From: Anoxynatronum buryatiense
GTDB taxonomy: Bacteria > Bacillota > Clostridia > Peptostreptococcales > Tindalliaceae
Length of the DNA: 64,000 nt
Assembly: GCF_900182905.1 (NCBI RefSeq)
Contig: NZ_FXUF01000002.1
Location: 310,001 to 374,000, forward strand
Reading direction: 5' to 3'
Positions 22,907 to 41,215 of this stretch are shown one piece after another; the first letter of the stretch is position 1, and each line of letters begins with the position of its first letter. A program made the translations under genes and the position numbers. The notes under the pieces were generated by a model, which had not been told where the DNA came from, ran no database searches, and worked only from the letters and a program-made list of their open reading frames with translations.

Positions 22907-23045
22907 TGGTCAACACAGCGACAGTCTGGGCAATCAATGGGAATCTTTAGATTGTCGCTCATAGCCACTTCTTTATTGACAACAATGCGATTCAGAAAAT
23001 GTTGATACGGATCACCGTTGTCGAAAACAACTTGTCTGCGATAGT

Positions 23046-23073
23046 GAACCATTTGCGCAGTCAGAAATGGTTC
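23046..23073 (+). promoter_or_regulatory. Inverted repeat before tatA
   Basis: GAACCATTT (23046-23054) and AAATGGTTC (23065-23073) form a perfect 9-bp inverted repeat, 9 bases before the tatA ribosome site. It could be an operator or an mRNA hairpin that affects tatA translation. There is no T run, so it is not a terminator. Confidence 0.4.
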
Positions 23074-23097
23074 AGAAAAGCGAAAGGAGGTTATCGC

Positions 23098-23286
23098 ATG
23101 GGACGAATTGGTTTTCAGGAACTGTTGGTGGTTTTTGGACTGGCACTGCTGATCTTTGGTCCGACAAAGCTTCCTGAAATAGGGAAGTCACTGGGGAAAG
23201 GGATCCGAGAGTTTAAACAGGCATCAAAAGAAGTGAAAGACAGTGTCACCTTGGATGATGATGGTGATGAACCAAAGACTAAATAA
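23098..23286 (+). CDS. tatA: Twin-arginine translocase subunit TatA (first copy)
   Basis: A 62-residue protein with one N-terminal membrane helix, the hinge [16 protein letters not shown] and an amphipathic, charged tail: the standard TatA layout. AAAGGAGG lies 7 bases before the ATG at 23098. It is the first gene of tatA-tatA-tatC and lies 1.9 kb upstream of a gene with a twin-arginine signal. This copy keeps the canonical hinge and is likely the pore-forming TatA. Confidence 0.95.
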
Positions 23287-23312: not shown

Positions 23313-23495
23313 ATGCGTTTTGGATGGTTGGAAGTGCTCCTCATCGCAGGGGTTGTGTTGTTGGTCTTTGGACCGAAGCGATTTGGAATGATTGGCAAGT
23401 CAGCCAAAGAGAGCCTGAAAGAATTTAAGGATGAAGCCACAAAAGATGAAGCGGAAGAGTTAAAAAAGACGAAAGAATCGTTAAAGGATAGGTGA
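23313..23495 (+). CDS. Second TatA/TatB-like subunit, diverged hinge
   Basis: A 60-residue protein with a membrane helix (GWLEVLLIAGVVLLVFGP) and an amphipathic tail, so it is TatA/B-like. The hinge reads FGPKRFGMIGKS instead of FGPxKLPEIG, and the tail is richer in Glu/Lys. It lies 26 bases after tatA and overlaps the tatC start. It may act as a TatB-like or specialised TatA subunit; which cannot be decided from sequence. Confidence 0.85.
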   Translation: MRFGWLEVLLIAGVVLLVFGPKRFGMIGKSAKESLKEFKDEATKDEAEELKKTKESLKDR

Positions 23496-24226
23496 CAAGC
23501 GTGACAGACGAGAGCCGAACCATGAGCATTATCAGACACCTGGAAGAATTGAGAAAGCGCCTGATCATCTGTCTGGTAGCCCTGGCAATCACAGCGACGG
23601 CTGGGTTTTTCTACGTGGACGAGATTCGCGTTTTGCTGGTCAAGCCTGCCGGGCCAATAGAGCTCATATACATCACACCACCTGAAGCGTTGATGGTGAA
23701 CATACGATTGGCCATACTGGCGGGAATTATGGTGGCCATGCCTGTATTCGTTTACCAGCTGCTGGCTTTCATTATGCCGGCACTCTATAAAAACGAAAAA
23801 AAGTTGCTGGTGCCGGTGGTTTTTGCCATGATTCTCATGTTTATCACAGGCATTCTTTTTGCTTATCGAGTTGCGTTTCCCTTTGCCATCGCTTTTTTTC
23901 TGAAATTTGCCTCGGATGACCTGATTCCCTTGTTTACCATTACCCAATACACCTCATTCATTACCCAGTTTCTGCTCACTTTCGGCCTGGTATTCCAACT
24001 GCCGTTGCTTTTTCTTTTTCTGGGGCTGATCAATGTGGTGACAGCTCCGCTGTTGCGACGCATTCGAAAATATGTGATGCTGGTCATTCTCATAGGAGCT
24101 GCCATTATCACACCGCCAGATGTGGTTTCACAGCTGATGATTGCAGCACCGCTGTGGGTGCTTTACGAAGTGGGTATTCTGCTGGTTATGCTGGTACAGT
24201 TTCGACGGAAAAAGAAAAAGCAATAA
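23492..24226 (+). CDS. tatC: Twin-arginine translocase subunit TatC
   Basis: A 244-residue polytopic protein with about six membrane helices and the N-terminal signature MSIIRHLEELRKRL, which binds the RR signal in the family. The ORF opens with GTG at 23492 overlapping the previous stop; a GTG at 23501 is also possible. TatC recognises folded Tat substrates, and the Tat-signal oxidoreductase encoded at 25.0 kb is the obvious client. A separate promoter follows, so tat and the reductase genes may be regulated apart. Confidence 0.96.
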   Translation: MTSVTDESRTMSIIRHLEELRKRLIICLVALAITATAGFFYVDEIRVLLVKPAGPIELIYITPPEALMVNIRLAILAGIMVAMPVFVYQLLAFIMPALYKNEKKLLVPVVFAMILMFITGILFAYRVAFPFAIAFFLKFASDDLIPLFTITQYTSFITQFLLTFGLVFQLPLLFLFLGLINVVTAPLLRRIRKYVMLVILIGAAIITPPDVVSQLMIAAPLWVLYEVGILLVMLVQFRRKKKKQ

Positions 24227-24274: not shown

Positions 24275-24321
24275 ATTCAATTCTTATATCTTTATGATAT
24301 AATAAATCATGAGAATTGAAT
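24275..24321 (+). promoter_or_regulatory. Promoter with flanking inverted repeat before torD-like gene
   Basis: TATAAT at 24298-24303 lies inside a perfect 10-bp inverted repeat: ATTCAATTCT (24275-24284) and AGAATTGAAT (24312-24321), 27 bases apart. A smaller inner palindrome, ATATC with GATAT, overlaps the -10 box. No good -35 box is seen at 17 bases, which fits a promoter needing an activator or one blocked by a repressor. It is about 80 bases before the torD-like start. Confidence 0.6.
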
Positions 24322-24401
24322 GTGCAGCGGGTTGTGCCTCAAATGGTTAAATCATTAACAAGCATTGGAGCACAGCTGCTGGTGAAGGGAAGGTGATGGT
24401 G

Positions 24402-25001
24402 ATGGTGATGAATGTGAATTATCAGGATCGGGTTGTGCAATATGCATTGCATGCTCGATTTTTTTATGACCAGCTGTTAGCCAAAGACTGGCCTGTGTTA
24501 CAAAACACTTTTGAAGCCATGACACCCACATGCCGACAAGCTCATCAGGTGATTAGAACTGAAATCGAAAAGGCATTATCTGACAAGGCTGCTGAAGAAA
24601 AGCTGCGGGTGGAATATGCCCATCTTTTTCTGCTTCCTGAAGGTGTGAAAATGTATGCATCCGTTCACCAAAGCAGTGAACCACTGCTGCGGCAGAAAGC
24701 CTGGCAGCAGGTGACAAAGCGGTATAAGACTCATGGCTTGAAGCTTGAACCAGATGAATATCACCCTGAAGACCATGCCTCGGTTGAACTGTCGTTTATG
24801 GCGCATCTCATTGAACAGGGTGAAAGCTACGAAGCCCAGCTTGATTTTCTGCAAAAACATGTGCTGATATGGCTGCCGGGGGTATTGCAGAAACTTTGCA
24901 CACATCCCAAAGCAGAGATCTATCGGTTGGTGTCTGAAAGAACATTACATTTTTTGAAAGAGGAAGAACAGCTGCTGATGCAGCTGATGAATATGGAATA
25001 G
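24402..25001 (+). CDS. TorD/DmsD-family molybdoenzyme chaperone
   Basis: A 199-residue, helix-rich protein of the TorD/NarJ type. These proteins bind the Tat signal of a molybdoenzyme and hold it until cofactor insertion is finished. Recognition rests on the helical pattern, the stretch EPDEYHPEDHASVELSFMAHLI typical of the group, and the position 13 bases before a Tat-signal molybdoenzyme. The start is uncertain: GTG and ATG codons alternate in frame from 24393 to 24410; 24402 is best spaced from GGGAAGG. Confidence 0.85.
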   Translation: MVMNVNYQDRVVQYALHARFFYDQLLAKDWPVLQNTFEAMTPTCRQAHQVIRTEIEKALSDKAAEEKLRVEYAHLFLLPEGVKMYASVHQSSEPLLRQKAWQQVTKRYKTHGLKLEPDEYHPEDHASVELSFMAHLIEQGESYEAQLDFLQKHVLIWLPGVLQKLCTHPKAEIYRLVSERTLHFLKEEEQLLMQLMNME

Positions 25002-25014
25002 GAGGAACTGAATC

Positions 25015-27258
25015 ATGCAATCGACGAAGAAATCTACGTTTGAGATGGACCGGCGCACGTTTCTGAAAACTGCCGCCGGCGGAAGTCTGGCCGCCGGTTT
25101 GGGACTGGGCATTCCCCGCTTCGTTCATGCGGAGCAGCAGAGTGTGATTGAACCCCAATCCAAGGTGGTGAACACTTTTTGCAGTGTCTGTGGCGGTGGC
25201 TGTGGTATCCGCGCCCACGTGGTGGATGGCCGCGTGGTACACCTGGAGGGAAATCCCGATGATCAGGCAGCTGAGGGGCGTTTGTGTGTCAAAGCCTATT
25301 CATCTATCAAAACGTTATATGACCCTGACCGTCTGAAATACCCCATGAAGCGCACCAATCCTCAAAAGGGTGAAGGGGTGGACCCGGGATTCATTCAAAT
25401 CAGCTGGGAGGAAGCTTTCCAACTGACAGCGGAGAACTTTCAGAAGGCCATCGATGAACATGGGCCGGAGTCCATCATTTTCTTTATGCGGGGACAGGAT
25501 TTTGCCAACCGGCTGCGCAATGCCATCGGCACCCCCAATCATGTGGCCCATCAGAGCACCTGTTTTACTTCTCAGGTGGCCAGCTGGTTTGCCCAGGTAA
25601 CCGGGGGCGGACGTCCTTATGTTTACGATCTGGAAAACTGCAAATACATTATGGGTTTTGGCTTCGACGGCCTGGGGAAATCCAAGAACATGCACATTCG
25701 CAGCATTACCCGGGCATTGGCCAACAATGCCAAAATGGTCATCCTCGACCCTTATATGTCTGTGACAGCCCGAAAAGCCCACGAATGGATTCAGATTAAA
25801 CCGGGAACTGATCTGGCCTTTGCCCTGGCCATGATTCACGTGATTGTCAGTGAAAATTTGTTCGATGCGTCATATGTGGAAGACATGACCTTTGGCTTTG
25901 AATACCTGGCTGACTTTGCCCGCGATTATACGCCAGAGTGGGCCGCTGAGATCACTGAAGTTCCCGCCGAAGATATTCGCCGCATTGCCAGGGAGTTTGC
26001 GACTACCAAACCAGCCCATATTTTCACCCACAAAAGGGATGCTGCCGGCCCTAATTATGCCAACAGCACCCGCTTGGCCCAGGCCATTGTTATTCTCAAT
26101 GCCCTGGTGGGTACCATTGACCGGGAAGGCGGACTGTTGCTGAAACGCAGTTTCCCCACTCCCAGTTTTGATGAGGTTTTCCCCCGCCCAGATTTCCCGG
26201 AGCGGCGCAAAGAACGTATTGACGCCTGGGAGCAGCGGGAAATCATGAGCCGCTTCACCAATGGTGACTTTGCCACTGTGGCTGATGGTATTCTGAACGA
26301 AAAACCTTACCCCACCAAAGCGGCACTGGTGCGAAAATACAACCTGCTGGCTTTTCCTGAAGCCAAGCGGATGGAAGAAGCACTGAAAAAGCTGGACTTT
26401 ATTGCCGTCTGTGAAATCTACCCCTCAGAGATGGCCATGATGGCCGATGTGGTGTTCCCTGAGCCCTATTGGCTGGAGACCTCCGGCGTGTCCGAACGGG
26501 ATTTCTTTTCCCGCTATCCCCAGCTGGCGGTCCGCACCCCGGTCATTGAACCCCAGTATGACACCAAAGGGTTCAGTGCCATCATCGTTGAGCTGGCCAA
26601 GGCCATGAATCTGGGACACTATTTTGAAGAGGCTTCCGGCGGCAAATGGAACAACGCCATTTTGGAAGCGGCAGGAACCACATGGGACGATATGAAAGAT
26701 CATCCCACAGGACTTTGGGGTGACGAAAAACCTTTTGAAGGCAAAACCAGTTTCAACACACCCAGCGGAAAAATCGAACTGTTTTCAACGGTGATGGAGG
26801 AAAATGGCTTTGATCCTCTGCCCCATTGGCGCCCCCGGCGGGAGGAGCCGACGGCAGATTATCCCTTCCATTACCTCATCAACCGTCCGCCCATGCATAA
26901 AATGACAGAATCACAAAACAATCGGCTCATCATGGCACTGTATGGCGAAAACCATGCCATTCTCAATGATCGCCGGGCAGCTGAAATGGGTATTCGTGAA
27001 GGTGACGAAGTGTATGTGGAATCCCGGGTTGCCAAAATCAAACTGAAAGCGAAACTGACGGCAGGCATTCGTCATGACTGCGTCTGTGTTTTCCACGGGT
27101 TTGGTCACTGGAGCCAGGGGCTTAGTCGTGCCGCAGGTATTGGGGCCAATGATGGTGATTTGATCCCATCCATGACCCACGAAGAAATGAAAGCACTGCA
27201 TGATCCTGGTGCTGGTGCCTGTATGCTTGATTTTCCCGTGAAAGTGTATCGGGCCTAA
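25015..27258 (+). CDS. Tat-exported molybdopterin oxidoreductase, PhsA/PsrA-like
   Basis: A 747-residue catalytic subunit of the DMSO-reductase superfamily. A Tat signal (DRRTFLKTAAGG, residues 12-23) directs export. The [4Fe-4S] cysteines are C56, C59, C63 and C91, and the likely Mo ligand is C183 in HQSTCFTSQ; a cysteine ligand is typical of polysulfide, thiosulfate and arsenate reductases. The C-terminal molybdopterin-dinucleotide domain starts near residue 620. The substrate cannot be assigned; sulfur-compound reduction is the best guess. GGAGGAACTG precedes the ATG. It lies in one operon with chaperone, ferredoxin subunit, rnfC and rnfD, with no NrfD/PsrC anchor gene. Confidence 0.88.
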   Translation: MQSTKKSTFEMDRRTFLKTAAGGSLAAGLGLGIPRFVHAEQQSVIEPQSKVVNTFCSVCGGGCGIRAHVVDGRVVHLEGNPDDQAAEGRLCVKAYSSIKTLYDPDRLKYPMKRTNPQKGEGVDPGFIQISWEEAFQLTAENFQKAIDEHGPESIIFFMRGQDFANRLRNAIGTPNHVAHQSTCFTSQVASWFAQVTGGGRPYVYDLENCKYIMGFGFDGLGKSKNMHIRSITRALANNAKMVILDPYMSVTARKAHEWIQIKPGTDLAFALAMIHVIVSENLFDASYVEDMTFGFEYLADFARDYTPEWAAEITEVPAEDIRRIAREFATTKPAHIFTHKRDAAGPNYANSTRLAQAIVILNALVGTIDREGGLLLKRSFPTPSFDEVFPRPDFPERRKERIDAWEQREIMSRFTNGDFATVADGILNEKPYPTKAALVRKYNLLAFPEAKRMEEALKKLDFIAVCEIYPSEMAMMADVVFPEPYWLETSGVSERDFFSRYPQLAVRTPVIEPQYDTKGFSAIIVELAKAMNLGHYFEEASGGKWNNAILEAAGTTWDDMKDHPTGLWGDEKPFEGKTSFNTPSGKIELFSTVMEENGFDPLPHWRPRREEPTADYPFHYLINRPPMHKMTESQNNRLIMALYGENHAILNDRRAAEMGIREGDEVYVESRVAKIKLKAKLTAGIRHDCVCVFHGFGHWSQGLSRAAGIGANDGDLIPSMTHEEMKALHDPGAGACMLDFPVKVYRA

Positions 27259-27279
27259 CCCTGAGAGAGGAGGATATCA

Positions 27280-28161
27280 ATGAGTAATCAAAACGAAATG
27301 ACCATGTTGGTGGATCACTCCCTCTGTATCGGGTGTGAAGCCTGTACAGCTGTCTGTAAAAATATCTATGACAGCGATGCCAGTATATACAATGTCACCC
27401 CGCTGATTTTTCGCACCAAAATCAGTGAACTGAATACAGGACAATACTACAGCGGCAGTGCTGCCGGCAGCATGAGAACTGTTTATAAAAAGAATGCCTG
27501 CCTCCACTGTACCGAGGCTTCCTGTGTGATGGCCTGTCCCACCAGAGCCTGTCATAAGAATGAAGACGGATTGGTGGTCATCGATGAAAGATTGTGTATC
27601 AGCTGCAACTATTGCGCTAAAAACTGCCCTTATAATGCCATCAGCTACGATCGGCCCGCAGGTGCGGTTAATAAATGCAGCCTCTGTGATGCCCGCATCG
27701 ACCAGGGGTTGGAACCTCTATGCAGCACTGTCTGCCCCACGAAAGCAGTGCAGTTTGGACCACGGGATACCATGATTGCCCATGCCAGCCAACGGGTGGA
27801 AGATCTGAAAAATCAGGGTTACGTCAGTGCAAATCTATATGGCACCACAGAATTTAACGGTCAGCGGGTGTTAATGATTCTTGATGAAGCACCACCAGCC
27901 TACGGATTGCCGGTGAACCCGCAAATTCCCCTTTCGCTGCGGCTCTGGAGTGCACTGCCGCTGCGTCCTCTGGTGCTGGCTGCAGTAGGAGCCGTGGTTG
28001 GTTTCAATTTCCTGCATTCCAGGAAGTATGAACAGAAGGCTGCGGAAGTGCGACAGAAACATGCTGCTGCTCCCTACTGTTACGTGATTCCCGGACAGGA
28101 CGAAGATGATGATCTTGAAGCCATGGATCGGGAACGAGAATCCTCAGACAGTTCTTCCTAA
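27280..28161 (+). CDS. Four-cluster [4Fe-4S] ferredoxin subunit with C-terminal membrane segment
   Basis: A 293-residue electron-transfer subunit of the PsrB/PhsB/DmsB type. Four cysteine groups start at C16, C74, C106 and C133, enough for four [4Fe-4S] clusters. It has no signal of its own and would be carried out with the catalytic subunit. Unlike typical DmsB/PsrB it has a hydrophobic stretch at about residues 226-245 (LPLRPLVLAAVGAVVGFNFL) followed by a charged tail, which may anchor it as in FdnH. AGGAGG precedes the ATG. The partner that feeds it electrons is inferred to be RnfCD, encoded next. Confidence 0.88.
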   Translation: MSNQNEMTMLVDHSLCIGCEACTAVCKNIYDSDASIYNVTPLIFRTKISELNTGQYYSGSAAGSMRTVYKKNACLHCTEASCVMACPTRACHKNEDGLVVIDERLCISCNYCAKNCPYNAISYDRPAGAVNKCSLCDARIDQGLEPLCSTVCPTKAVQFGPRDTMIAHASQRVEDLKNQGYVSANLYGTTEFNGQRVLMILDEAPPAYGLPVNPQIPLSLRLWSALPLRPLVLAAVGAVVGFNFLHSRKYEQKAAEVRQKHAAAPYCYVIPGQDEDDDLEAMDRERESSDSSS

Positions 28162-28199
28162 CCATGTCGACCGGCAGAAAATAAGAAGGGGTGAAGCAA

Positions 28200-29528
28200 A
28201 TGGAGATGAAATCTTTTAAGGGTGGTGCCCATGTCCCCCACTTTAAACGCTATACAGACCGCGTACAGATTCAACCCATGTCAGTGCCTGAACGGGTGAC
28301 CATTCCCATGCACCAATGTCTGGGAGCGCCCTGCGAACCACTGGTAAAAGCGGGTGACCGTGTCAGCGTTGGTCAGATCATTGGTGACTCAGGCGAGATG
28401 ATCAGTGCGCCGGTACATGCCAGCGTCAACGGAGTGGTGGAAAAAGTGGAAACCCTGGCATACTGCAGTGGTGATGTGGCTAAAAGCGTTATTATTAAAA
28501 CCGAAGGGGAAAATCATTCCTTCGAACCATCCGTCAAACGTGATCCGGGAGCTATGAGTAAGGAAGAGATTATTCAGGCCATCAGAGATGCCGGTATTGT
28601 AGGGATGGGGGGAGCGTCTTTTCCCACTCATGTCAATGTGAATACACGTCAGCCAGTGGACTATCTGGTGCTGAATGGAGCTGAGTGTGAACCTTTTCTG
28701 ACTTGCGACCACAGAGCCATGGTGGAACGGGCAGACGAACTGGTGGCAGGGGCAGAAATCTTAAGCCGCGTTATTGGTGCTAAGAAATGTCTTATTGGCA
28801 TTGAGGTCAACAAACCGGATGCCCTTGAAACCCTGAAGGAAAAGACCAAAGACAATGAGTTGTTTGAGATCGTTCCACTGGCGGTAAAGTATCCCCAGGG
28901 TTTTAAATCCATTCTTATTAAATCGGCCACCGGCAGAGATGTTCGCCGGGGAGCCAGATCAGCTGAAATTGGCTGTATTGTACGAAATGTGGGAACCACC
29001 ATTGCTGTCTATGAAGCGGTAGTGTACGGGAAGCCATTAATTGAACGGGTGATTACCGTCAGCGGCCCCCAAGTCCCCCATCCGGGAAATTTCCTGACAA
29101 AAATTGGAACACCTGTTGGTCACATGCTGGCACATTGCGGTGTAACAACCTACGATGATATGAAAGTAATACTGGGGGGCCCAATGACAGGACGGGCTCA
29201 GGATACTCTGGAAGCCCCGGTGATCAAAAACAGTACCGGTGTGCTGATGCTGCCTGTTGAAATGGTTCGGGAGCATGCGCCTCATGAACACTGCGTACGG
29301 TGTGGCAAGTGTGTGGCCCGATGTCCCATGCGTTTGTACCCCAATCAGCTGAGTATTTTTGCTGAAACTGAGAACTATGAAGGGTTGGAAGCATGGAATA
29401 TCATGGACTGTATGGAGTGCGGCATCTGTGTGTTCAGCTGTCCTTCCAACCGGCCCATACTTGAATTCATACGACATGCCAAGCCGGTGGTCAAAAAAAT
29501 GGAACTGGTGCGCAAACAGGCCCAGTAG
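28200..29528 (+). CDS. RnfC-like NADH-binding electron-transport subunit
   Basis: A 442-residue peripheral membrane protein of the RnfC family. It begins MEMKSFKGGAHVP, like the FKGG(V/I)H start of RnfC. The flavin/NADH-binding region holds GMGGASFPTH and NGAECEPFLTCDH, and two [4Fe-4S] motifs follow (CVRCGKCVARCP and CMECGICVFSCP). In Rnf complexes this subunit exchanges electrons with NADH in the cytoplasm. The ATG at 28200 has AAGGGG 8 bases upstream; GTG at 28191 lies inside that site. Only rnfD follows; rnfG, E, A and B are absent from the window, so this is not a complete Rnf complex here. Confidence 0.93.
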   Translation: MEMKSFKGGAHVPHFKRYTDRVQIQPMSVPERVTIPMHQCLGAPCEPLVKAGDRVSVGQIIGDSGEMISAPVHASVNGVVEKVETLAYCSGDVAKSVIIKTEGENHSFEPSVKRDPGAMSKEEIIQAIRDAGIVGMGGASFPTHVNVNTRQPVDYLVLNGAECEPFLTCDHRAMVERADELVAGAEILSRVIGAKKCLIGIEVNKPDALETLKEKTKDNELFEIVPLAVKYPQGFKSILIKSATGRDVRRGARSAEIGCIVRNVGTTIAVYEAVVYGKPLIERVITVSGPQVPHPGNFLTKIGTPVGHMLAHCGVTTYDDMKVILGGPMTGRAQDTLEAPVIKNSTGVLMLPVEMVREHAPHEHCVRCGKCVARCPMRLYPNQLSIFAETENYEGLEAWNIMDCMECGICVFSCPSNRPILEFIRHAKPVVKKMELVRKQAQ

Positions 29529-29546
29529 CAAAGGAGGAGATCGAAA

Positions 29547-30488
29547 ATGATAAAAGCAGAACATTTACCGGTATCAGCGGCGCCCTATCTGAAAGATGAT
29601 GTGTTTATCCATACCGCCATGCGTGATGTGATGATCGCCCTTTTGCCCATTTCCCTGGTATCTGTCTATTTTTACAAAGGGTATGCACTGATGATGATTG
29701 CCCTGTGCATGGCCACGGCAGCGGTTACAGAAGTCGTTTTTCGCACCATTCGAAAGAAACCGGTGACGCTGAAAGATGGCAGCGCTCTCTTAACAGGACT
29801 TTTTGTGGCACTGCTCTATCAGCCCACTGCTTCGCCTGTATCGGCCGTGCTGGCAACAGTGTTGGCCGTCGGCATCGCCAAAGAACTGGCAGGCGGACTG
29901 GGGATGAACCGATTTAATCCTGCGATTTTTGGCCGTGTCTGCATGATCTTTTTGGCACCTCTTCTGGCAGGTGTGATGGTGGGAGTTCCCAATTTGGGAA
30001 GCATCGATGTGGTTTCAAAGGCCTCTCCACTGGCCATGCTGGGTGGCGGAATGGAAATGCCCGGCTACCTGCAGATGTTTTTAGCCTATCCCGGCGGCGC
30101 ACTGTCAGAATCTTCCCCGCTGGCGTTACTGGCGGGCGGTGTTTTCCTCTACATGAAAGGCCATATTAACTGGCGGGTACCAGCGTCTATTTTCGTGACG
30201 GTATTTGTACTTGCACTGGTTACTGGTCAAGACCCGATTTATCACCTGTTGTCCGGCGGGTTGATGTTGGGTGCCCTCTTTATGGCCACAGACTGGGTGA
30301 CGGCCCCCATCACCACCGGTGGCAAACTGATTTTTGGAATCGCCATTGGTTTTCTGGTGATGTTGTTCCGGGTTTTTCTGCCGCCGACAGAAGGTGTGGC
30401 ATTTTCCATTCTCATTATGAATGCTTTTGTGCCTGTCATTGATAAATCAACCCGGCATCTGGCTTTTCTGGAGCCCAAAGAAGCTTAA
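29547..30488 (+). CDS. RnfD-like membrane subunit with altered flavinylation motif
   Basis: A 313-residue membrane protein of the RnfD/NqrB family with about nine hydrophobic segments and the family motif MNRFNPAIFGR. The site where RnfD normally carries covalent FMN (S-G-A-T) reads S-K-A-S at residues 157-160 (30015-30026), within IDVVSKASPLAML. Covalent flavin is therefore uncertain, although serine could still accept it. AAAGGAGG precedes the ATG. It is the last gene of the torD-oxidoreductase-ferredoxin-rnfC unit, before a hairpin. It is presumed to carry electrons through the membrane. Confidence 0.92.
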   Translation: MIKAEHLPVSAAPYLKDDVFIHTAMRDVMIALLPISLVSVYFYKGYALMMIALCMATAAVTEVVFRTIRKKPVTLKDGSALLTGLFVALLYQPTASPVSAVLATVLAVGIAKELAGGLGMNRFNPAIFGRVCMIFLAPLLAGVMVGVPNLGSIDVVSKASPLAMLGGGMEMPGYLQMFLAYPGGALSESSPLALLAGGVFLYMKGHINWRVPASIFVTVFVLALVTGQDPIYHLLSGGLMLGALFMATDWVTAPITTGGKLIFGIAIGFLVMLFRVFLPPTEGVAFSILIMNAFVPVIDKSTRHLAFLEPKEA

Positions 30489-30521
30489 GCCTGTCAAAAA
30501 AATGAACAGATACACACCTGT

Positions 30522-30553
30522 GCCTGCCGCTTATGCGGCAGGCTGTTTCAATG
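30522..30553 (+). terminator. Terminator after rnfD
   Basis: The 9-bp perfect stem GCCTGCCGC (30522-30530) with GCGGCAGGC (30535-30543) and a TTAT loop is followed by a T-rich but interrupted tail. It marks the end of the reductase operon after only rnfC and rnfD. Confidence 0.7.
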
Positions 30554-33939: not shown

Positions 33940-34032
33940 ATGGAGAGTAAGATTGTGCTGCTGGGGGCTGTGCATGGAGCAGTGATGCTTCATTCGAAAT
34001 AAAGAAATGATAAGGAACAAGGAGGGTCATTG

Positions 34033-34521
34033 ATGGCAAAAGAGTTTTTGACAGAAGAAAACTTTCAGAAATTGGATGAAGTCATTCTTCGACACAAAAA
34101 CAGACAAGGCGCTTTAATGCCAGTATTGCAGGAAGCTCAAGATATTTTTGGCTGCCTGCCCATTGAAGTGCAACGACAAATCTCAGAAGGCATTAAAATT
34201 CCAATGAGTGAAATTTATGGCGTAGTCACATTCTACTCTCAGTTCACTCTGGAACCCAAGGGCGAGTATACCATCTCAATTTGTATGGGAACTGCCTGCT
34301 ACGTTCGCGGGGCCAAGCCCATGGTCGAAAAAGTTGCAGAAATGCTAGGTATTGCACCGGGTGAAACATCAGCCGATGCAAAGTTCAGTCTGGTGGCAAC
34401 CCGCTGTATCGGTGCCTGTGGACTGGCACCAATTCTGACAGTAAATGAAGATGTTTATGGAAGACTAACATTGGAAGATATTCCCGGTATTGTTGAAAAA
34501 TATCAAAAGGAGGGTTCCTGA
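34033..34521 (+). CDS. NuoE-like [2Fe-2S] subunit of formate dehydrogenase complex
   Basis: A 162-residue protein of the NuoE/HndA/HylC family, with a helical N-terminus, GVVTFYSQFTLEPKGEY and a thioredoxin-like [2Fe-2S] domain with cysteines in CMGTACYVRGA and CIGACGLAP. It passes electrons between the flavin subunit and other partners. The ATG at 34033 follows GGAGGG; the TTG one codon earlier is too close. It is the first gene of a four-gene unit ending in fdhA. Confidence 0.93.
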   Translation: MAKEFLTEENFQKLDEVILRHKNRQGALMPVLQEAQDIFGCLPIEVQRQISEGIKIPMSEIYGVVTFYSQFTLEPKGEYTISICMGTACYVRGAKPMVEKVAEMLGIAPGETSADAKFSLVATRCIGACGLAPILTVNEDVYGRLTLEDIPGIVEKYQKEGS

Positions 34522-34522
34522 T

Positions 34523-34888
34523 ATGAAATCTATTGCTGAACTGGAAGCCATCCGCAAGAAAGCACAGGACAGTGTGAAACTTCGTTCCGAAAGAGATGGT
34601 ATTCGTGTGGTGGTTGGTATGGCTACCTGTGGAATCGCTGCTGGTGCCCGCCCGGTAATGATGGCGCTGGTGGAAGAAGTCAGCAAGCGCCAGTTGAAAA
34701 ATGTGGTGGTGACACAAACCGGCTGCATTGGTGCCTGTCGTCTGGAACCAATGGTCGAAGTGTATCAGGGAGATGAAAAAGTTACTTATGTGAAACTGAC
34801 TCCCGAAGATGCACGCAAGATTGTTGCAGAGCATCTGGTTAATGGTCATATTGTCAAAGAATGTACCATTGGGGCTTACGAAAAATAG
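34523..34888 (+). CDS. HndB-like thioredoxin-fold [2Fe-2S] ferredoxin subunit
   Basis: A 121-residue small ferredoxin-like subunit. The pattern GMATCGIAAGARPVMMALVEEV followed by TGCIGACRLEP gives the C-x(n)-C and C-x3-C set of thioredoxin-like [2Fe-2S] proteins such as HndB of NADP-reducing hydrogenases. AAAAGGAGG precedes the ATG, which lies directly after the previous gene. It sits between NuoE-like and NuoF-like subunits, the usual hnd/hyl order. Confidence 0.88.
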   Translation: MKSIAELEAIRKKAQDSVKLRSERDGIRVVVGMATCGIAAGARPVMMALVEEVSKRQLKNVVVTQTGCIGACRLEPMVEVYQGDEKVTYVKLTPEDARKIVAEHLVNGHIVKECTIGAYEK

Positions 34889-34933
34889 ACCTGGCTACAG
34901 AGAAATGAAGAATAGGTAAGGAGGGTCAACTTT

Positions 34934-36730
34934 ATGGATTTGTATCGATCCCACGTCCTGGTGTGCGGCGGTACCGGATGTGTCTCATCAGAATCAATGA
35001 AAATAATTGAATCTTTCGAAACTGAACTGGCCAAACATAACATTGAAAAAGAAATCAAGGTGGTTAAAACTGGCTGCTTCGGCCTGTGTGAAGCCGGTCC
35101 CATTGTTATTGTCTATCCCGAAGGTGCCTTTTACAGCATGATCAAGGTCAGCGATGTGCCGTTGATTGTTGAAGAGCATCTCTTGAAGGGCCGTATCGTC
35201 ACCGACCTGCTTTATAAAGACCACACAACAGATGAAACAATGAACTCCATTGACGATGTGGGCTTCTATAAAAAACAGCAGCGGGTGGCACTGCGCAACT
35301 GTGGTGTTATTAATCCGGAAATCATCGAAGAGTACATTGCTTATGACGGCTATCAGGCATTGGCAAAAGTGCTGACGGAAATGACACCTGATGAAGTGGT
35401 GGATATCATCAAACGCTCAGGGCTTCGCGGCCGTGGCGGTGGGGGCTTCCCCACCGGTTTGAAGTGGGAGTTCACCCAAAAGGCGCCTGGTGATATTAAA
35501 TATGTTGCCTGTAACGCCGACGAAGGTGATCCGGGTGCTTTCATGGACCGTTCAGTGTTGGAGGGAGACCCTCATGCCATTGTGGAGGCCATGACCATTG
35601 CCGGCTATGCCGTTGGTGCCTGTAAAGGATTTGTATACGTGCGGGCAGAGTACCCCATCGCTGTGAAACGTCTTCAGATTGCCATCGATCAGGCAAAAGA
35701 AAACGGCCTGCTGGGTGATGACATTTTTGGAACCGGTTATGGTTTTGATATGGAAATTCGGCTGGGTGCCGGGGCTTTTGTCTGTGGTGAAGAAACAGCA
35801 CTGATTGCCTCCATCGAGGGCAAGCGTGGCATGCCAAAGGTGCGGCCTCCCTTCCCTGCCATAAAAGGTATATTCGACAAACCTACCTTGTTAAACAATG
35901 TGGAAACCTTTGCGAATATCACACAGATTATTCTCAAAGGAGCCGACTGGTTTGCCGGTATTGGAACCGAAAAATCAAAGGGAACAAAAGTGTTCGCTCT
36001 GGCGGGCAAAATTAACAACACCGGTCTGTTGGAGATCCCCATGGGAACCACCCTACGGGAAACCATTTATGAAGTGGGCGGCGGCATCCCCAATGGCAAA
36101 GCGTTTAAAGCTGTTCAAACGGGTGGACCCTCCGGTGGCTGTATTCCGGCTGAATACCTGGATACTCCCATTGATTACGATAACCTTATTTCGCTGGGGT
36201 CTATGATGGGATCTGGCGGGATGATTGTGCTGGATGAAGACAACTGTATGGTTGACGTGGCGCGTTTCTTCCTGGACTTTACAGAAGAAGAATCCTGCGG
36301 CAAGTGCACACCCTGTCGTGAAGGCACCAAACGTATGCACGAGTTACTGGATAAAATTGTTGAAGGTAAAGGTACAATGGACGATGTGGCTAAGCTGGAA
36401 ACGTTGGCTAAAACCATCAAAGGGGCATCCCTGTGCGGGCTGGGTCAAACAGCTCCCAACCCTGTGTTATCCACCTTGAAATATTTCCGGCATGAGTATG
36501 AGGCGCATGTCAATGACAAGAAATGCCCAGCAGGTGTCTGTCAGGCGCTGTTGCAATACCTGGTCATTGATGATCTTTGTAAGAAATGCGGTATTTGCGC
36601 CGCCAAGTGTCCTGTGAACTGCATTAGTGGTGTCAAAGGCAAAGAAATATATCACATCGATCAAGAACGCTGCATTAAGTGCGGTGCCTGCCTGGTAGCT
36701 TGCCCATTCAAAGCCATCAAAAAAGGGTAG
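34934..36730 (+). CDS. NuoF-like FMN/NAD(H)-binding subunit (HylB/HndC type)
   Basis: A 598-residue flavoprotein. It has an N-terminal thioredoxin-like [2Fe-2S] domain (VCGGTGC, TGCFGLCEAGP), the NuoF core with the NAD/FMN motif GLRGRGGGGFPTGLKW and CNADEGDPGAFMDRS, the [4Fe-4S] motif ESCGKCTPCREG, and two C-terminal ferredoxin clusters (CKKCGICAAKCP, CIKCGACLVACP). This layout matches the electron-bifurcating or NAD-linked hydrogenase and formate dehydrogenase complexes of Clostridia. It probably reduces or oxidises NAD(H), and ferredoxin may couple through the C-terminal clusters. Bifurcation itself is inference. Confidence 0.94.
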   Translation: MDLYRSHVLVCGGTGCVSSESMKIIESFETELAKHNIEKEIKVVKTGCFGLCEAGPIVIVYPEGAFYSMIKVSDVPLIVEEHLLKGRIVTDLLYKDHTTDETMNSIDDVGFYKKQQRVALRNCGVINPEIIEEYIAYDGYQALAKVLTEMTPDEVVDIIKRSGLRGRGGGGFPTGLKWEFTQKAPGDIKYVACNADEGDPGAFMDRSVLEGDPHAIVEAMTIAGYAVGACKGFVYVRAEYPIAVKRLQIAIDQAKENGLLGDDIFGTGYGFDMEIRLGAGAFVCGEETALIASIEGKRGMPKVRPPFPAIKGIFDKPTLLNNVETFANITQIILKGADWFAGIGTEKSKGTKVFALAGKINNTGLLEIPMGTTLRETIYEVGGGIPNGKAFKAVQTGGPSGGCIPAEYLDTPIDYDNLISLGSMMGSGGMIVLDEDNCMVDVARFFLDFTEEESCGKCTPCREGTKRMHELLDKIVEGKGTMDDVAKLETLAKTIKGASLCGLGQTAPNPVLSTLKYFRHEYEAHVNDKKCPAGVCQALLQYLVIDDLCKKCGICAAKCPVNCISGVKGKEIYHIDQERCIKCGACLVACPFKAIKKG

Positions 36731-36768
36731 TTGTCGGGTAATGATAGAACCTGTAAAGGAGGATTCGA

Positions 36769-39441
36769 ATGATCACGTTGAAAATAAACGGCTTTGATGT
36801 GGAAGTCAAAGAAGGCGCTACCATTTATCATGCCGCATCCAGTATCGGCGTCAAAATTCCCACGCTCTGTTATGATGAAAGGCTCAAACCCCACGGTTCC
36901 TGCCGCATTTGTGTGGTGGAGGTGGAAGGGGCCCGTTCTTTAATGGCATCCTGCAGCACGCCTGCTGCCAATGGCATGGTGGTACACACTGAAAGTGAAG
37001 CTGTGGTGACTGCCCGCAAGGAACTTCTTGACTTGATTTTGGCAAACCACCCGCTGGACTGCCTCACCTGTGAGAAGGCTGGGCGCTGCACCTTGCAAGA
37101 TCTCTGTTATCAGTATGATATTGAAGAGAGCACCTTCGACGGTAAGCGGAAATCCTATGAAAAAGATGCCTCCAATGAGTTTTATACAGCCGATCAAACA
37201 AAATGCATTCTTTGCGGAAAGTGTGTATATGTTTGTTCTCAGGTTCAAAACACCGATGCCATCTGTTTTGTAGACCGGGGTTTTGAAACCCACATCGGCA
37301 CTCCCTTTGATATGGGACTGTCAGAGTCTACCTGTGTCTCTTGTGGTAACTGCGTGGCCGTATGTCCTGTTGGCGCATTAATGCCAAAACGCAAAGAAAA
37401 GTTCAGATACTGGGAAGTTGAGAAAGTGAAAACCACCTGCTCTTACTGCGGAGTCGGATGTCAGATGGAACTGCTGGTTAAGGATGGAAAGGTAGTGGAA
37501 GTAGAGCCGGTAAAAGGCCACTCCAATGATGGCTTACTTTGTGTCAAAGGCCGTTTTTCCTATGATTTTGTCAATCATCCATCACGACTGAAAAAACCTT
37601 TGGTGCGTAAAAATGGTGTTCTGGAAGAAGTCACCTGGGATGAAGCCTATGAAACGATTGTGGACAAAATCAAAGAAATAAAAGCTGCTGATGGCCCTGA
37701 TGCCATTGCCGCTTTTTCATCAGCCCGTGGCCTGACAGAAGAAAATTATCTAATGACCAAAATGATGCGCGCAGTCATCGGGACCAATAATGTGGACCAC
37801 TGCGCACGCCTCTGACATTCCTCCACTGTTGCAGGTCTTGCAACAACACTTGGAAGCGGCGCGATGACCAACAGTATTGCTGATATTCAGCAGGCAGACA
37901 CCATTTTTGTCACCGGGTCAAACACCACAGAGTCCCATCCCGTCATTGGAGCCCAATTGAAGCGCTCTGTTCGCAATGGCTCAAAACTGATTGTGGCAGA
38001 TCCCCGTGAAATACCGCTGGCAGCCGAGGCAGATGTGTTCCTGAAAATTAAACCGGGAACCAGCATCGCCCTCCATAACGCCATGATGAACGTGATTCTG
38101 GAGGAAAAGCTTCAGGATGAAACCTATATTCGTGAAAATACGGATAACTTTGATGAGCTGGCTGAAAGTCTTAAAAAATACACCCCTGAATATTCAGCAG
38201 AAATATGCGGAGTTGATGCAGACAAGATCCGTGAAGCGGCCCGTCTCTATGCCGGTGTTGATAAAGCGGCCATCCTGTATTGCATGGGCATCACCCAGCA
38301 TGTGAATGGAACAGAGACAGTGATGAGCTTATCCAACCTGGCGCTGATTACCGGTAACATTGGAAAGCCCGGCTCCGGCGTGAATCCTCTTCGCGGTCAA
38401 AACAACGTGCAGGGAGCTTGTGACATGGGTGCACTGCCCAATGTCTTCACCGGCTATCAGCCTGTCGGCAACCCTGGCGCTCTTGAAAAATTTGAAAAGG
38501 CCTGGGGTGTCACGCTTTCAGACAAGGCGGGGCTAACGGTGACCGAGACGTTTAAAGCCATTGAGGAAGACCGGGTGAAGATGCTTTATATCTTCGGAGA
38601 GAATCCCATGATTTCTGATCCGGATACCCATCATGCCGAGCACGCCCTTCAAAAGACCTTCCTGGTAGTACAGGACCTGTTCCTCACTGAAACTGCTGAG
38701 TTGGCCGACGTGGTATTGCCGGCAGCATCTTTCGCTGAGAAAGATGGGACTTTCGTTAACACCGAAAGAAGAGTGCAACGGGTTCGAAAAGCTGTGAAAC
38801 CACCAGGAGAAGCAAAACCCGACTGGGTAGTCTTTATGGATCTGATGAATCGTTTGGGCTACGAGAAAAAATACAATGATGCCGAAGAAATCTTTGAAGA
38901 AATTCGCAAGGTAACCCCCCAATATGCCGGCATTACCTATGACCGCATCAAAGGAAGAGGCATCCAGTGGCCTTGCCCCACCACCGATCATCCGGGCACA
39001 CCTGTGCTTCACATTGGCAAACCCGCCCGGGGCGCCGGTCTGCTGAAGCCTGTTGAGTTCGTTGAATCAGGAGAGCTGGGGGATGAAGAGTACCCGCTGG
39101 TGATGACCACCGGCCGCATCCTTTATCAGTATCACACCCGTACCATGACCGGCAAAACAGAAGGTATTAACAATATGGCGCCGGAAGTATACGTGGAAGT
39201 GAACCCTGAATTGGCGGCAGCCAAAGGCATTGAAGATGGTGCCATGGTTAAGATTACATCCCGTCGCGGTTTTGTCACCATGAAAGCAAAAGTGACCGAC
39301 AGAGTGGAAAAGGGTGTTCTCTTCGTACCCTTCCATTGGGAAAGTGGCGCGAATGTGCTGACCAACGGTGAAGTGCTTGACCAGTACTGCAAGATCCCAG
39401 GCCTAAAAGTGACAGGTGTTAACCTGGAAAAAATGGCGTAA
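36769..39441 (+). CDS. fdhA: Selenocysteine formate dehydrogenase catalytic subunit (in-frame UGA at 37813)
   Basis: An 890-residue catalytic subunit read through an in-frame TGA at 37813-37815, codon 349. Both sides stay in one frame: NVDHCARL, Sec, HSSTVAGLATT. This is the formate dehydrogenase active site where Sec binds Mo or W. The N-terminus has a NuoG-like [2Fe-2S] (C34, C45, C48, C62), a His-Cys [4Fe-4S] cluster (H94, C98, C101, C107), two ferredoxin clusters (C146-C156, C189-C199) and the [4Fe-4S] of the molybdopterin core (C224, C227, C231). A SECIS hairpin follows the UGA. The N-terminal clusters and the three upstream subunits indicate a soluble NAD/ferredoxin-linked complex. Ordinary gene calling splits it into two pieces. 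Confidence 0.95.
37816..37848 (+). promoter_or_regulatory. Bacterial SECIS element of fdhA
   Basis: Eleven bases after the UGA begins a perfect 6-bp stem, TGTTGC (37827-37832) with GCAACA (37840-37845), closing the loop AGGTCTT. The E. coli fdhF SECIS has a GGUCU apical loop on a similarly placed stem, which SelB binds. Position, stem and loop agree, so the UGA is read as selenocysteine rather than as a stop. Confidence 0.9.
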
Positions 39442-39462
39442 GCCGTCACACACAAGACTATA

Positions 39463-39499
39463 AAAACCCGGTTTCTCAAGTAATGAGAAACCGGGTTTT
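39463..39499. terminator. Strong bidirectional terminator between fdhA and ferritin-like gene
   Basis: A 16-bp perfect stem, AAAACCCGGTTTCTCA (39463-39478) with TGAGAAACCGGGTTTT (39484-39499), has a 5-base loop. A and T runs on the two sides make it work in both directions for the two convergent genes. Confidence 0.92.
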
Positions 39500-39559
39500 G
39501 TGTGCCGTGATCTTTTCAAAAGGTGATTTTAGAGAACTCAGCTCAGTTCAGTCGAAACA

Positions 39560-40060
39560 TCAACCACCCCAGGGCTGGCTCATGTAGTCTTCCATCAAAC
39601 GCTGGTGTTCTTCCTTGAACAGTTTTTCATGGCCCTGTTCCCATAAAGCCAAAGTGTGGAACAGTTTTTTGGCACTGGGATCATCGGTGTTATCAGCTGC
39701 ATTCTGGTAAAATTCAGCAAAATCTTTTTCCATTAAGTAGGCAGTGCGCAGCACACTCATGTCAGGCACCATGCTTTCAGTCACCTGCTGGTCAAGCAGT
39801 TCGTTCTCTGCACGATCGGCAAAAATATTTTTTTCCCGGTCAAGATCAAAGTCTACCTCTTTAAAAGTCTGATGCTTTTCAAAATGCTCCAGTTGTTCCT
39901 TCAGGTACTCGTAATGGTCCATTTCAACGTCTGCCAGTCGCAATAACATGTCTTTTGCACTGGCCAGGCTTACTTTTTCAGATTGATGGCGGAAAAAATC
40001 CACACCTTGCAATTCCCGCTCCATGGCATAGCGGATGATGTTTTGATAATTCTGTTTCAT
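39560..40060 (-). CDS. Ferritin-like (rubrerythrin-type) diiron protein
   Basis: A 166-residue four-helix protein. The putative diiron ligands lie in AMERELQGVDFF, DVEMDHYEYL, LMEKDFAEFYQNAA and LWEQGHEKLF, the E / E-x2-H pattern of rubrerythrin-like ferritins. There is no C-terminal rubredoxin domain, so it is the erythrin-only form. GGGAGGCG precedes the ATG. Such proteins reduce peroxide or handle iron in anaerobes; that role is inferred. It is divergent from fdhD. Confidence 0.88.
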   Translation of the reverse strand: MKQNYQNIIRYAMERELQGVDFFRHQSEKVSLASAKDMLLRLADVEMDHYEYLKEQLEHFEKHQTFKEVDFDLDREKNIFADRAENELLDQQVTESMVPDMSVLRTAYLMEKDFAEFYQNAADNTDDPSAKKLFHTLALWEQGHEKLFKEEHQRLMEDYMSQPWGG

Positions 40061-40088
40061 TTAAACGCCTCCCCGTTAAAATCTTAAC

Positions 40089-40147
40089 ACTATTATACCA
40101 TATTTATACCACAAAATGTCGGCGAATAAACCGGATTCTGGTATAAT
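40089..40147. promoter_or_regulatory. Divergent extended -10 promoters of the ferritin-like gene and fdhD
   Basis: TGGTATAAT at 40139-40147 (plus strand) is an extended -10 box for fdhD. Its exact inverse, ATTATACCA at 40089-40097, gives the same box on the minus strand for the ferritin-like gene. The two form a 9-bp inverted repeat 41 bases apart. -35 boxes are poor on both sides. Confidence 0.6.
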
Positions 40148-40177
40148 AATCATAGTAGTACACAGGGAGGGTCACAA

Positions 40178-41005: not shown

Positions 41006-41066
41006 TATAATCAATTCAAATGAATGATCAGAATTTTTTCCGAGTTGTATTTTTCTAAGGGAAGGC

Positions 41067-41135
41067 ATTCCTATGAAGAGCAACCGTCGGGTACTGGGAG
41101 AAATCCCCGTGCCTCCCGTGATGGAAAGGAAAAAA
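41067..41135 (+). promoter_or_regulatory. Probable molybdenum-cofactor (Moco) riboswitch aptamer before moaA
   Basis: The 5' leader between fdhD and moaA contains GTGCCTCCCGTGATGG and GAAAGGA, which resemble the conserved core I associate with Moco RNAs. Pairing supports a fold: ATTCCT (41067-41072) with AGGAA (41127-41131), and CCGTC...GGG with CCC...GATGG. A terminator hairpin follows, then moaA, the usual target of this riboswitch. I could not run a covariance model, so the class is moderately sure. Confidence 0.6.
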
Positions 41136-41143
41136 GCCCCCCA

Positions 41144-41172: not shown

Positions 41173-41215
41173 GTATTGCACCAGAGGGAAAGGCTATGAG
41201 ACAGGAGGATCATGT

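Follow-up and report, generated by a model that had tools for sequence, protein, structure and literature searches.

The window analysed here, a 64,000-nucleotide stretch of the Anoxynatronum buryatiense genome, holds a five-gene operon (24393-30488) in which a chaperone gene is followed by genes for a molybdoenzyme (subunit A), a ferredoxin subunit (B), RnfC and RnfD, all in the same direction and separated by 13-29 bases (Table 1). The initial annotation had named this set torD, a Tat-signal molybdoenzyme with a Cys ligand, a four-cluster ferredoxin subunit, rnfC and rnfD, and our assignments, made with Pfam and NCBIfam profiles at their family cut-offs and with sequence motifs, agree with it. 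The chaperone scores 66.6 bits against the TorD family NF003442, below the cut-off of 132. The window's tatA product is probably the exporter that serves the operon enzyme. The promoter and terminator proposed at the two ends fare less evenly: the -10 hexamer is perfect, but the -35 is weak, and a consensus promoter scan, which returned 6 promoters where shuffles give 6.8, does not list it. Likewise, the 51-nt stretch with the hairpin folds at -24.9 kcal/mol (z -5.0), but its T tail is poor and it is missing from the output of a terminator scan (10 found versus 7.3 expected).

Table 1. Features of the operon and its upstream Tat genes, in window coordinates.
Feature	Position	Strand	Basis
tatA (Tat export)	22999..23286	+	PF02416 7.5e-20; directly upstream of operon
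tatC	23492..24226	+	PF00902 5.7e-62
-10 hexamer TATAAT, perfect (candidate promoter)	24298..24303	+	read from sequence; -35 weak: TTCAAT, 16-nt spacer
torD/dmsD-like molybdoenzyme chaperone, 202 aa	24393..25001	+	PF02613 (Nitrate_red_del) 2.8e-21
PhsA/PsrA-like molybdoenzyme A, 747 aa, Tat signal	25015..27258	+	profiles, motifs, 2vpw_A match
ferredoxin subunit B, 16 Cys, FdnH-like, C-terminal membrane helix	27280..28161	+	TIGR01582, 1kqf_B
rnfC, NADH/FMN domain and two [4Fe-4S] motifs	28191..29528	+	TIGR01945, 7zc6_C
rnfD, membrane electron conduit	29547..30488	+	TIGR01946, residue mapping, AlphaFold
terminator-like hairpin, 9-bp GC-rich stem, poor T tail	30522..30543	+	fold of 51-nt stretch

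A search of other genomes for the order torD-phsA-phsB-rnfC-rnfD found it again in three genomes of a sister genus, together with the uvrA-tatA-tatC and uvrC neighbours, and in a fourth the rnfD end of the operon lies at a contig edge, beside uvrC. As both order and neighbours are repeated, the arrangement goes beyond chance.

Subunit A belongs to the Molybdopterin oxidoreductase family, and its best family match is PhsA (NF012032; 464 bits, cut-off 694), so that it is related to PhsA and not an equivalog. The closest solved structure is 2vpw_A (359 bits), a polysulfide reductase entry named thiosulfate reductase. The Tat signal reads RRTFLK (PF10518, 22.6 bits, just below the cut-off of 22.7). 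The Cys ligand lies within HQSTCFT, which is present in 13 of 18 PhsA rows (three loci counted twice); of the five rows without a match, L070 and L084 are truncated at the 5' end, while L119, L120 and L122 are more distant. A has this motif and lacks the Sec or Cys in HCARL-U/C-H that marks a formate-type site. We favour a sulfur compound, polysulfide or thiosulfate, as its candidate substrate. A role as arsenate reductase was rejected on the ArrA score (254 bits, cut-off 1600). In the alignment, A and ArrA have in common a His four residues ahead of the Cys. Subunit B has 16 Cys, invariant over 19 rows, as expected for four [4Fe-4S] clusters. It scores 164.9 bits against TIGR01582, below the cut-off of 334.7, and its closest solved structure is 1kqf_B, the beta subunit of FDH-N. 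B has one hydrophobic stretch at its C terminus, from about residue 222, where the AlphaFold model places a helix (229-263); the model is weak (pLDDT 72.7, TM 0.48 to 1kqf_B) and was used for the helix only. Judged by eye, helix-like C-terminal ends are found in 22 B rows.

RnfC of the window (TIGR01945, 492.8 bits, cut-off 246; 366 bits against 7zc6_C) retains the motifs GMGGASFPTH and NGAECEPF. Among the matches listed (rows below 400 aa dropped, four loci present twice), GxGG..(F/L)P and ECEP are kept in 70/70 non-fused RnfC rows and in neither of two fusions, and two CxxCxxC motifs are found in all 72 rows. RnfD (TIGR01946, 231.6 bits, cut-off 207) is modelled by AlphaFold in the known fold (pLDDT 77.4, TM 0.84 to 9eri_D). 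Mapping from the A. woodii residues N123, D249 and T156, as given in an excerpt of PMC11889175, places the riboflavin ligands at N124 and D249 and the FMN site at S160, which is Thr in most relatives: among the matches listed, the Asn and the Asp occur in 81/81 rows, and the third position is Thr in 75/81 and Ser in 6/81; that the FMN anchor of the window's RnfD is a Ser counts against the reading proposed below. Judged by these residues, the flavin and NADH sites of both proteins are intact.

The operon-type RnfDs form one clade of 81 rows among the matches listed (SH-aLRT 92), with E113 and W250 in 100% of them, where canonical rows mostly have Q (86%) and Y (82%). From the full RnfD set, identical rows and rows below 280 aa had been removed (134 to 111) and the NqrB of the window's own genome was regrouped. 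Group-specific changes affect 2/7 positions in helix V, 13/82 in other membrane parts and loops and 0/11 in the two arms. As none of the 14 conserved positions of the RnfG-facing linker is changed in this way, an altered outer docking face is invisible in the sequence. The window operon has the make-up of what we call a half-Rnf, with rnfCD beside A and B, without rnfG, E, A or B, and with an RnfD of the E113/W250 clade.

The initial annotation had also stated that NrfD/PsrC and RnfG, E, A and B are missing. None of nrfD, rnfG, rnfE, rnfA or rnfB lies within the operon, but the genome also holds a separate rnfCDGEAB, on another contig, and nqrBCDEF, so that the statement holds for the operon only. 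The canonical rnfCDGEAB carries its own, diverged RnfC and RnfD and does not contain the subunits of the window operon. A genome-wide search that covered NrfD (PF03916), FdnI-type cytochrome b (PF01292), MqnA/D and MenD showed no NrfD partner outside the operon either, no FdnI-type cytochrome b and no member of the MqnA/D families, and MenD gave sub-cut-off matches only. About 36 kb upstream (the gap measures 36.5 kb, and the two rnfD genes are 42.6 kb apart), a second operon (L007) combines an exported selenocysteine formate dehydrogenase, in which the HCARL-U/C-H motif is present, with an rnfCD pair of its own.

How general is this arrangement? We sampled 80 of 393 relatives listed, seeded with RnfDs already known from such operons, and counted 76 loci after setting aside three canonical ones (L128, L136, L137) from 79. 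Gene content was read by tblastn (E up to 1e-5) with proteins of the window's genome as queries. Among the matches listed, rnfC is present in 72 of the 76 loci, A or B in 67, B in 63 and rnfG in one, with rnfE/A in 0/76 and rnfB in 0/76. In the 35 loci with 5.5 kb on both sides, again among the matches listed, C is found in 35, B in 34, A in 32 and E/A in none. The same queries detected rnfE/A in 28/28 canonical rnfD loci, mostly stretches of just 3.9 kb. Nine of the 76 loci lack A and B among the matches listed, and in eight of them the contig breaks off on one side, within or beside rnfC or rnfD; L133, which has full flanks and no A or B, has an FMN_bind (RnfG-like) gene beside rnfCD. Looser blastp returned an RnfB-like 147-aa ORF (38%) on the opposite strand of L131, perhaps a ferredoxin, which dropped out at a stricter cut. 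Tat genes were listed at some of the 76 loci (TatC at 15, TatA at 17). The gene orders are varied (ABCD, CDAB, ABDC, CDB and ACDB), which argues against mere inherited synteny. Going by length and match, six contigs appear twice (L049/L102, L053/L069, L054/L065, L055/L066, L056/L126 and L057/L127); identical rows were removed from the RnfD set, and the RnfC and PhsA counts keep the duplicates.

Part of the loci is represented by 57 host genomes. The RnfA/RnfE/NqrD/NqrE family (PF02508) scores above cut-off in 55 of them, the window's included, so that the host genomes give no proof that the cell has lost the pump half or that the operon works independently of it. NrfD occurs in 1/57 hosts (G594, which holds L098, a locus titled Thioalkalivibrio sp.) versus 70/299 genomes of a phylum sample that includes the window's genome (Fisher p 2e-5, kinship ignored). 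A class-wide search at E 1e-95 gave 3/391 genomes, the third of which (G348) has a canonical Rnf (L143), so that the clade is rare in the class sample at this threshold; an order-wide search found an RnfD of the high-scoring set in 8/198 genomes.

Many genomes share the arrangement, which is both conserved and modular. The enzymes joined to rnfCD are formate dehydrogenase, a PhsA-like enzyme and, at two loci, a [NiFe] hydrogenase, and changes between Phs and formate partners number at least four on the RnfD tree. Natronincola peptidivorans and one MAG encode a fusion with an [FeFe] hydrogenase in front and, behind it, an RnfC that has no FMN/NADH motifs. This natural exchange of modules suggests that RnfC is the inner port and that electrons are conducted by RnfD.

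With Rnf (RnfCDGEAB) the operon shares RnfC and RnfD, in which the residues for FMN/NADH and for FMN/riboflavin are intact, and the fold of RnfD, but it has only these two of the six subunits, its RnfD falls in a separate clade, and its partner is an exported molybdoenzyme, or in related loci a hydrogenase, where that of Rnf is ferredoxin. The catalytic subunit with a Cys ligand and the four-cluster B subunit resemble PsrABC and PhsABC, whereas neither the operon nor the rest of the genome showed an NrfD/PsrC quinol anchor and B has an FdnH-type helix. B is indeed nearest to FdnH of formate dehydrogenase N (FdnGHI), C-terminal helix included, and the sister operon encodes an exported Sec formate dehydrogenase; however, there is no FdnI cytochrome b, and RnfC-RnfD occupies its place. 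A truncated RnfC/RnfD beside formate dehydrogenase has been described for the syntroph phylotype unFirm_1 (genome about 60% complete), with RnfC and formate dehydrogenase detected in the metaproteome; in excerpt, that report reads the pair as a truncated ion pump, an oddity, and mentions neither a family nor versions with PhsA or a hydrogenase (PMC5080403, 2016). The adjacency is the same as here, a likeness drawn from the excerpted description. Our literature search found nothing on PhsA-like or hydrogenase versions; the remark in the initial annotation that no described complex was known has to be qualified by the 2016 report.

We consider it likely that the operon encodes one membrane complex, in which the RnfC-RnfD arm of Rnf acts as a quinone-free wire between NAD(H) and an exported enzyme. 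A and B would be exported together by Tat, and the C-terminal helix of B would hold them on the outer face, from where B may exchange electrons with RnfD. Within RnfD, electrons would cross the membrane between a covalent FMN on the outer side and riboflavin on the inner side, and the cytosolic port would be RnfC with its FMN/NAD(H) site and its pair of [4Fe-4S] clusters. Excerpts of Rnf structure papers put FMN-D close to RnfG near the outer face and riboflavin towards the cytosol, and have RnfC dock on RnfD (PMC11889175, PMC9588780, PMC12174285). The complex would correspond to the RnfG-RnfD-RnfC-NAD+ arm with B in place of RnfG and with the pump-input half (RnfA, E, B) missing. In sister complexes the outside enzyme would be a formate dehydrogenase or a [NiFe] hydrogenase, likewise exported, and two loci would have at the inner end the [FeFe] hydrogenase to which a degenerate RnfC is joined. 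For the window enzyme we favour NADH-driven outward flow to polysulfide or thiosulfate, which the membrane potential would assist because electrons leave the negative side, while flow through the formate-type complex may be reversible. More guardedly, we lean towards a general quinone-free RnfC-RnfD wire that forms a respiratory complex class of its own, with exported oxidoreductases outside and NAD(H) or [FeFe] hydrogenase inside. The path from NADH through RnfC and RnfD to an outside reductase had been suggested in the initial annotation; its quinone-free link fits our data, but that NADH always donates is less certain: electrons may also flow inward, and at two loci an [FeFe] hydrogenase takes the place of NADH at the cytosolic end.

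The same complex might work mainly in reverse, oxidising an outside donor and forming NADH from electrons that enter via RnfD and RnfC, in a redox loop that builds membrane potential. The wire also bears [NiFe] hydrogenase and formate dehydrogenase, with a donor potential for formate (about -430 mV) below that of NAD+ (-320 mV). Moreover, forward Rnf runs from RnfG through RnfD and RnfC to NAD+ (PMC11889175, in excerpt). However, A of the window groups with PhsA/PsrA reductases and the TorD-like chaperone also suits reductases, and we regard a mainly inward flow as unlikely. Similarly improbable, in our view, is that RnfD in operon-type complexes pumps Na+ beyond acting as a passive wire. RnfD/NqrB has been proposed as an ion path in an Rnf structure (PMC9588780) and in Nqr work reviewed in PMC12174285, whereas PMC11889175 has RnfD only transfer electrons and RnfA/E pump (all in excerpt); rnfA/E is absent from the 76 loci among the matches listed.

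In place of a separate wire, the operon RnfC and RnfD could be spares that dock on canonical RnfG, E, A and B, so that a full pump serves the exported enzyme via RnfG. RnfA/E-family genes are indeed present elsewhere in nearly all hosts (55/57, the window genome included), and the outer linker of RnfD is without visible change. Yet the operon RnfDs form a separate clade with fixed E113 and W250, the canonical operon already includes an rnfCD pair, rnfE, A and B occur in 0/76 loci among the matches listed versus rnfE/A in 28/28 canonical loci, and a hydrogenase-RnfC fusion would make a poor spare for a ferredoxin:NAD+ pump; such docking seems very unlikely. Finally, that the PhsAB-like enzyme and RnfCD are co-expressed and separate, linked by a diffusible outside carrier, is highly improbable: L064, a 5.3-kb contig, does have phsB-rnfC-rnfD directly behind tatC without phsA, but B lies near rnfCD in 63/76 loci among the matches listed, in many orders and with different catalytic subunits, and its end is helix-like in the 22 rows judged by eye.

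Respiratory molybdoenzymes are textbook quinone users. If the complex is as we propose, a quinone-free NAD(H) wire would explain how anaerobes poor in cytochromes and quinones use formate, H2 and sulfur compounds outside the cell. Cells that use it could also run redox loops, or let the membrane potential drive electrons out, with no need of a quinone pool, for instance from NADH to outside formate in syntrophs; how syntrophs drive NADH electrons to formate is an open question, and the membrane potential could push them outward. Another is which Rnf/Nqr subunit pumps Na+, on which published models, in excerpt, disagree (PMC11889175, PMC9588780, PMC12174285). Here, operon-type complexes would be natural half-machines that have RnfD and lack RnfA/E.

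Apart from Rnf, RnfC-type NADH modules are found in other enzymes, namely RnfC2 in methylene-THF reductase and PrdC in proline reductase. To our knowledge these enzymes are cytosolic, without RnfD or an exported partner, and they resemble the operon in that a homologue of RnfC serves them as a redox module that can be detached. The PrdC profile also matches the window RnfC, below its cut-off.

The operon of the window consists of five head-to-tail genes, and gene calls with domain searches agree with the composition proposed in the initial annotation: a TorD-like chaperone, a molybdoenzyme with a Tat signal (A), a ferredoxin subunit (B), RnfC (C) and RnfD (D). tatA and tatC lie directly 5' and uvrC 3'. 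Of the proposed bounds, the terminator corresponds to a GC-rich hairpin, whereas the evidence for a promoter is weak despite a perfect -10 box. By profile search the catalytic subunit is closest to PhsA (464 bits, below the cut-off of 694), and its closest solved structure is the Thermus-type polysulfide/thiosulfate reductase 2vpw (359 bits). The B subunit is closest to FdnH of formate dehydrogenase N. Its 16 cysteines are invariant across 19 rows, and its C-terminal helix is seen by hydropathy and in a predicted model; 22 B rows have, as judged by eye, a similar hydrophobic C-terminal stretch followed by a charged tail. FdnH shares this helix, but the FdnI-type cytochrome b of formate dehydrogenase N was not found by profile search in the 4.16-Mb genome. 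Profile searches of the genome likewise found no MqnA/D family member and no NrfD, the partner that the initial annotation had considered might be encoded elsewhere. MenD gave sub-cut-off matches only, as in 7 of 14 control genomes; the search for quinone genes and quinol anchors covered these four.

The operon lacks rnfG, E, A and B, as had been claimed, although such genes are present elsewhere in the genome. Its five NQR2/RnfD/RnfE genes belong to an rnfCDGEAB operon, an nqrBCDEF operon, a lone rnfC-rnfD pair, the window operon and a further operon with the same architecture (order by reading; domains of C, G, B, NqrC and NqrF and the RnfA/E, NqrD/E family by profile). In this further operon, 36.5 kb 5' of the window operon (42.6 kb between the two rnfD genes), a weakly fdhE-like gene (sub-cut-off) precedes that of an exported formate dehydrogenase, whose only in-frame TGA falls at the Sec position; the genes for B, RnfC and RnfD come next. 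The genome also has two ApbE flavin transferases.

The window operon belongs to a modular class (half-Rnf: rnfC and rnfD beside an exported A or B, without rnfG, E, A or B) that is wider than initially read. Among 198 genomes of the order searched with the window RnfD, RnfDs proven in half-Rnf operons score at least 265 bits (225 for one contig-edge fragment), and the next match 213. The order torD-phsA-phsB-rnfC-rnfD without rnfGEAB, whose conservation had been proposed as a check, recurs, its neighbours unchanged, in G004, G016 and G039 (also L102, of the same family as the window genome); G047 has its rnfD end, next to uvrC, at the edge of a contig. The formate version occurs in G026, G039 and G047. 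In G091 and G102, one of them Natronincola peptidivorans DSM 18979 (L127), a torD-phsA-phsB-X-rnfD operon adjoins tatC, X being a protein of 1012-1027 aa in which an [FeFe] hydrogenase precedes an RnfC domain. In both fusions the RnfC domain retains two [4Fe-4S] motifs but has lost those for FMN/NADH.

Ten half-Rnf RnfDs, searched against the genomes of 84,980 species, gave 393 relatives, 80 of which were taken, in 79 loci; three were canonical rnf operons and were left out. The remaining 76 contain rnfC (72), a catalytic subunit (56), B (63) and A or B (67), and an RnfG-like gene in one; tblastn within the fetched loci found rnfE/A in none and rnfB in none. Where at least 5.5 kb flanks rnfD on each side (35 loci), rnfC is present in 35, B in 34, A in 32 and rnfE/A in 0, and, at E up to 1e-3, the same tblastn queries recovered rnfE/A in 28/28 control loci with RnfD nearest canonical. 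Catalytic partners by tblastn are formate dehydrogenase (44, one resting on a partial match), Phs-like (7), both (3), Phs-like with hydrogenase fusion (2) and none (20, many being cut contigs). In two of these 20, L082 and L094, genes for a Tat ferredoxin and for both subunits (small, large) of an [NiFe] hydrogenase come after rnfC-rnfD; this hydrogenase can be read as a third kind of exported enzyme using the wire. The genes occur in several orders (ABCD 32, CDAB 9, BCD 6, CDB 5, CDA 4, ABDC 2, ACDB 2, and others). In L114 and L084 a single wire would seem to serve two exported enzymes, and L133 may be an intermediate form linking Rnf with the wire.

Could half-Rnf RnfC and RnfD borrow subunits of other Rnf sets in the host? 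Such borrowing is possible, since RnfA/E-family genes are above cut-off in 55/57 hosts, and the outer linker of RnfD has no group-specific change relative to canonical rows. The [FeFe] hydrogenase-RnfC fusions argue against it, as does a separate RnfD clade: in a 111-row tree (a quick search with many open forks) 81 half-Rnf rows lie on one side of one branch (SH-aLRT 92), with at least four changes of Phs/formate label. The riboflavin ligands and FMN-bearing hydroxyl known from A. woodii RnfD (accessible text of PMC11889175) are kept in 81/81 of these rows, the hydroxyl being that of Thr in 75 rows and of Ser in six, including the window RnfD. E113 and W250 are fixed in the clade, canonical rows having mostly Q and Y, and RnfC GxGG..(F/L)P and ECEP occur in 70/70 non-fused rows. 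NrfD is present in 1/57 hosts versus 70/299 genomes of the phylum sample, the hosts being non-independent, mostly MAGs, of several phyla by title, and the sample including the window genome.

In Rnf, electrons from RnfG, on the outside, pass via the FMN and riboflavin of RnfD and then via the RnfC clusters and FMN to reach NAD+ (accessible parts of PMC11889175, PMC9588780 and PMC12174285). The window operon retains exactly the RnfD-RnfC arm and supplies a membrane-tethered four-cluster B in place of RnfG. The simplest reading of this anatomy is that B, next to its exported catalytic partner, would give electrons to, or take them from, the FMN of RnfD. As the fused RnfC without an NADH site carries a hydrogenase, the fusions suggest what lies at the inner end of the wire. 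Outward flow would be favoured by the membrane potential and inward flow would build it. For the PhsA-like enzyme we favour outward flow to a sulfur compound; either direction is plausible for the formate version, whose hosts include MAGs labelled Syntrophomonadaceae. The proposed quinone-free link from NADH through RnfC and RnfD to the reductase largely fits the findings, among them the retained RnfC/RnfD sites and a genome in which NrfD, MqnA and FdnI-type proteins were not found; path and direction are read from anatomy.

The claim that no such complex had been described stands in part. A 2016 study of an uncultured syntroph noted that RnfC and RnfD adjoin a formate dehydrogenase; the dehydrogenase and RnfC were both detected there (PMC5080403, in its accessible text). 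For haloalkaline syntrophs, the available portions of PMC6295475 list Rnf C, D and G, those of PMC10608574 describe a formate dehydrogenase that is exported and whose B subunit bears a helix, and neither draws a link between the two. In searches pairing RnfC/RnfD with molybdopterin, thiosulfate reductase or hydrogenase fusion, mostly outside subscription journals, no title or abstract described the other versions.

Other features are listed in the table. NQR without NqrA is known from Clostridium ultunense and Pseudothermotoga lettingae (accessible text of PMC5924567). The lone rnfC-rnfD pair may be a further half-Rnf that supplies flavin reductases outside the cell. With a cytosolic formate dehydrogenase cluster in the window and the exported version 5' of it, cycling of formate between inside and outside is conceivable. 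The anticodon AGC called for a tRNA-Ala is unusual in bacteria.

Coordinates of features in the window and in loci fetched around rnfD genes (L-numbers; G000, window genome, with the window at G000:C2:310001-374000)
Sequence	Positions	Strand	Feature	Remark
Window	24393-30488	+	torD-A-B-rnfC-rnfD
Window	34030-42175		Cytosolic NuoE/NuoF-type formate dehydrogenase cluster (named by reading)	Alpha subunit with one in-frame TGA after NVDHCARL (Sec position); FdhD gene (PF02634), moaA-like gene 3'
Window	52629-52715	-	tRNA-Ala, anticodon AGC	ARAGORN; possibly false call
L008 (G000:C5:36000-55000)	9536-11841		Lone rnfC-rnfD	RnfC domains by profile; RnfD on long branch; 2-6 kb from genes reading like exported FMN-binding flavoproteins
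L009 (G000:C1:364000-383000)	8977-12894		nqrBCDEF	No nqrA adjoining
L082	7594-14587		rnfC-rnfD, Tat ferredoxin, [NiFe] hydrogenase	Also genes reading like hydrogenase maturation
L094	7539-17563		rnfC-rnfD, Tat ferredoxin, [NiFe] hydrogenase	As in L082
L084	1-9930		Adjacent Phs-like and formate operons	Surrounding a single rnfCD pair
L114	617-11924		Adjacent Phs-like and formate operons	Surrounding a single rnfCD pair
L090	3-3482		Fused formate dehydrogenase catalytic and B subunits	1163-aa open frame from contig edge, 5' of rnfC-rnfD
L133	6893-10002		FMN_bind (RnfG-like)-rnfC-rnfD	Without E, A, B or molybdoenzyme; RnfD in half-Rnf clade, long branch
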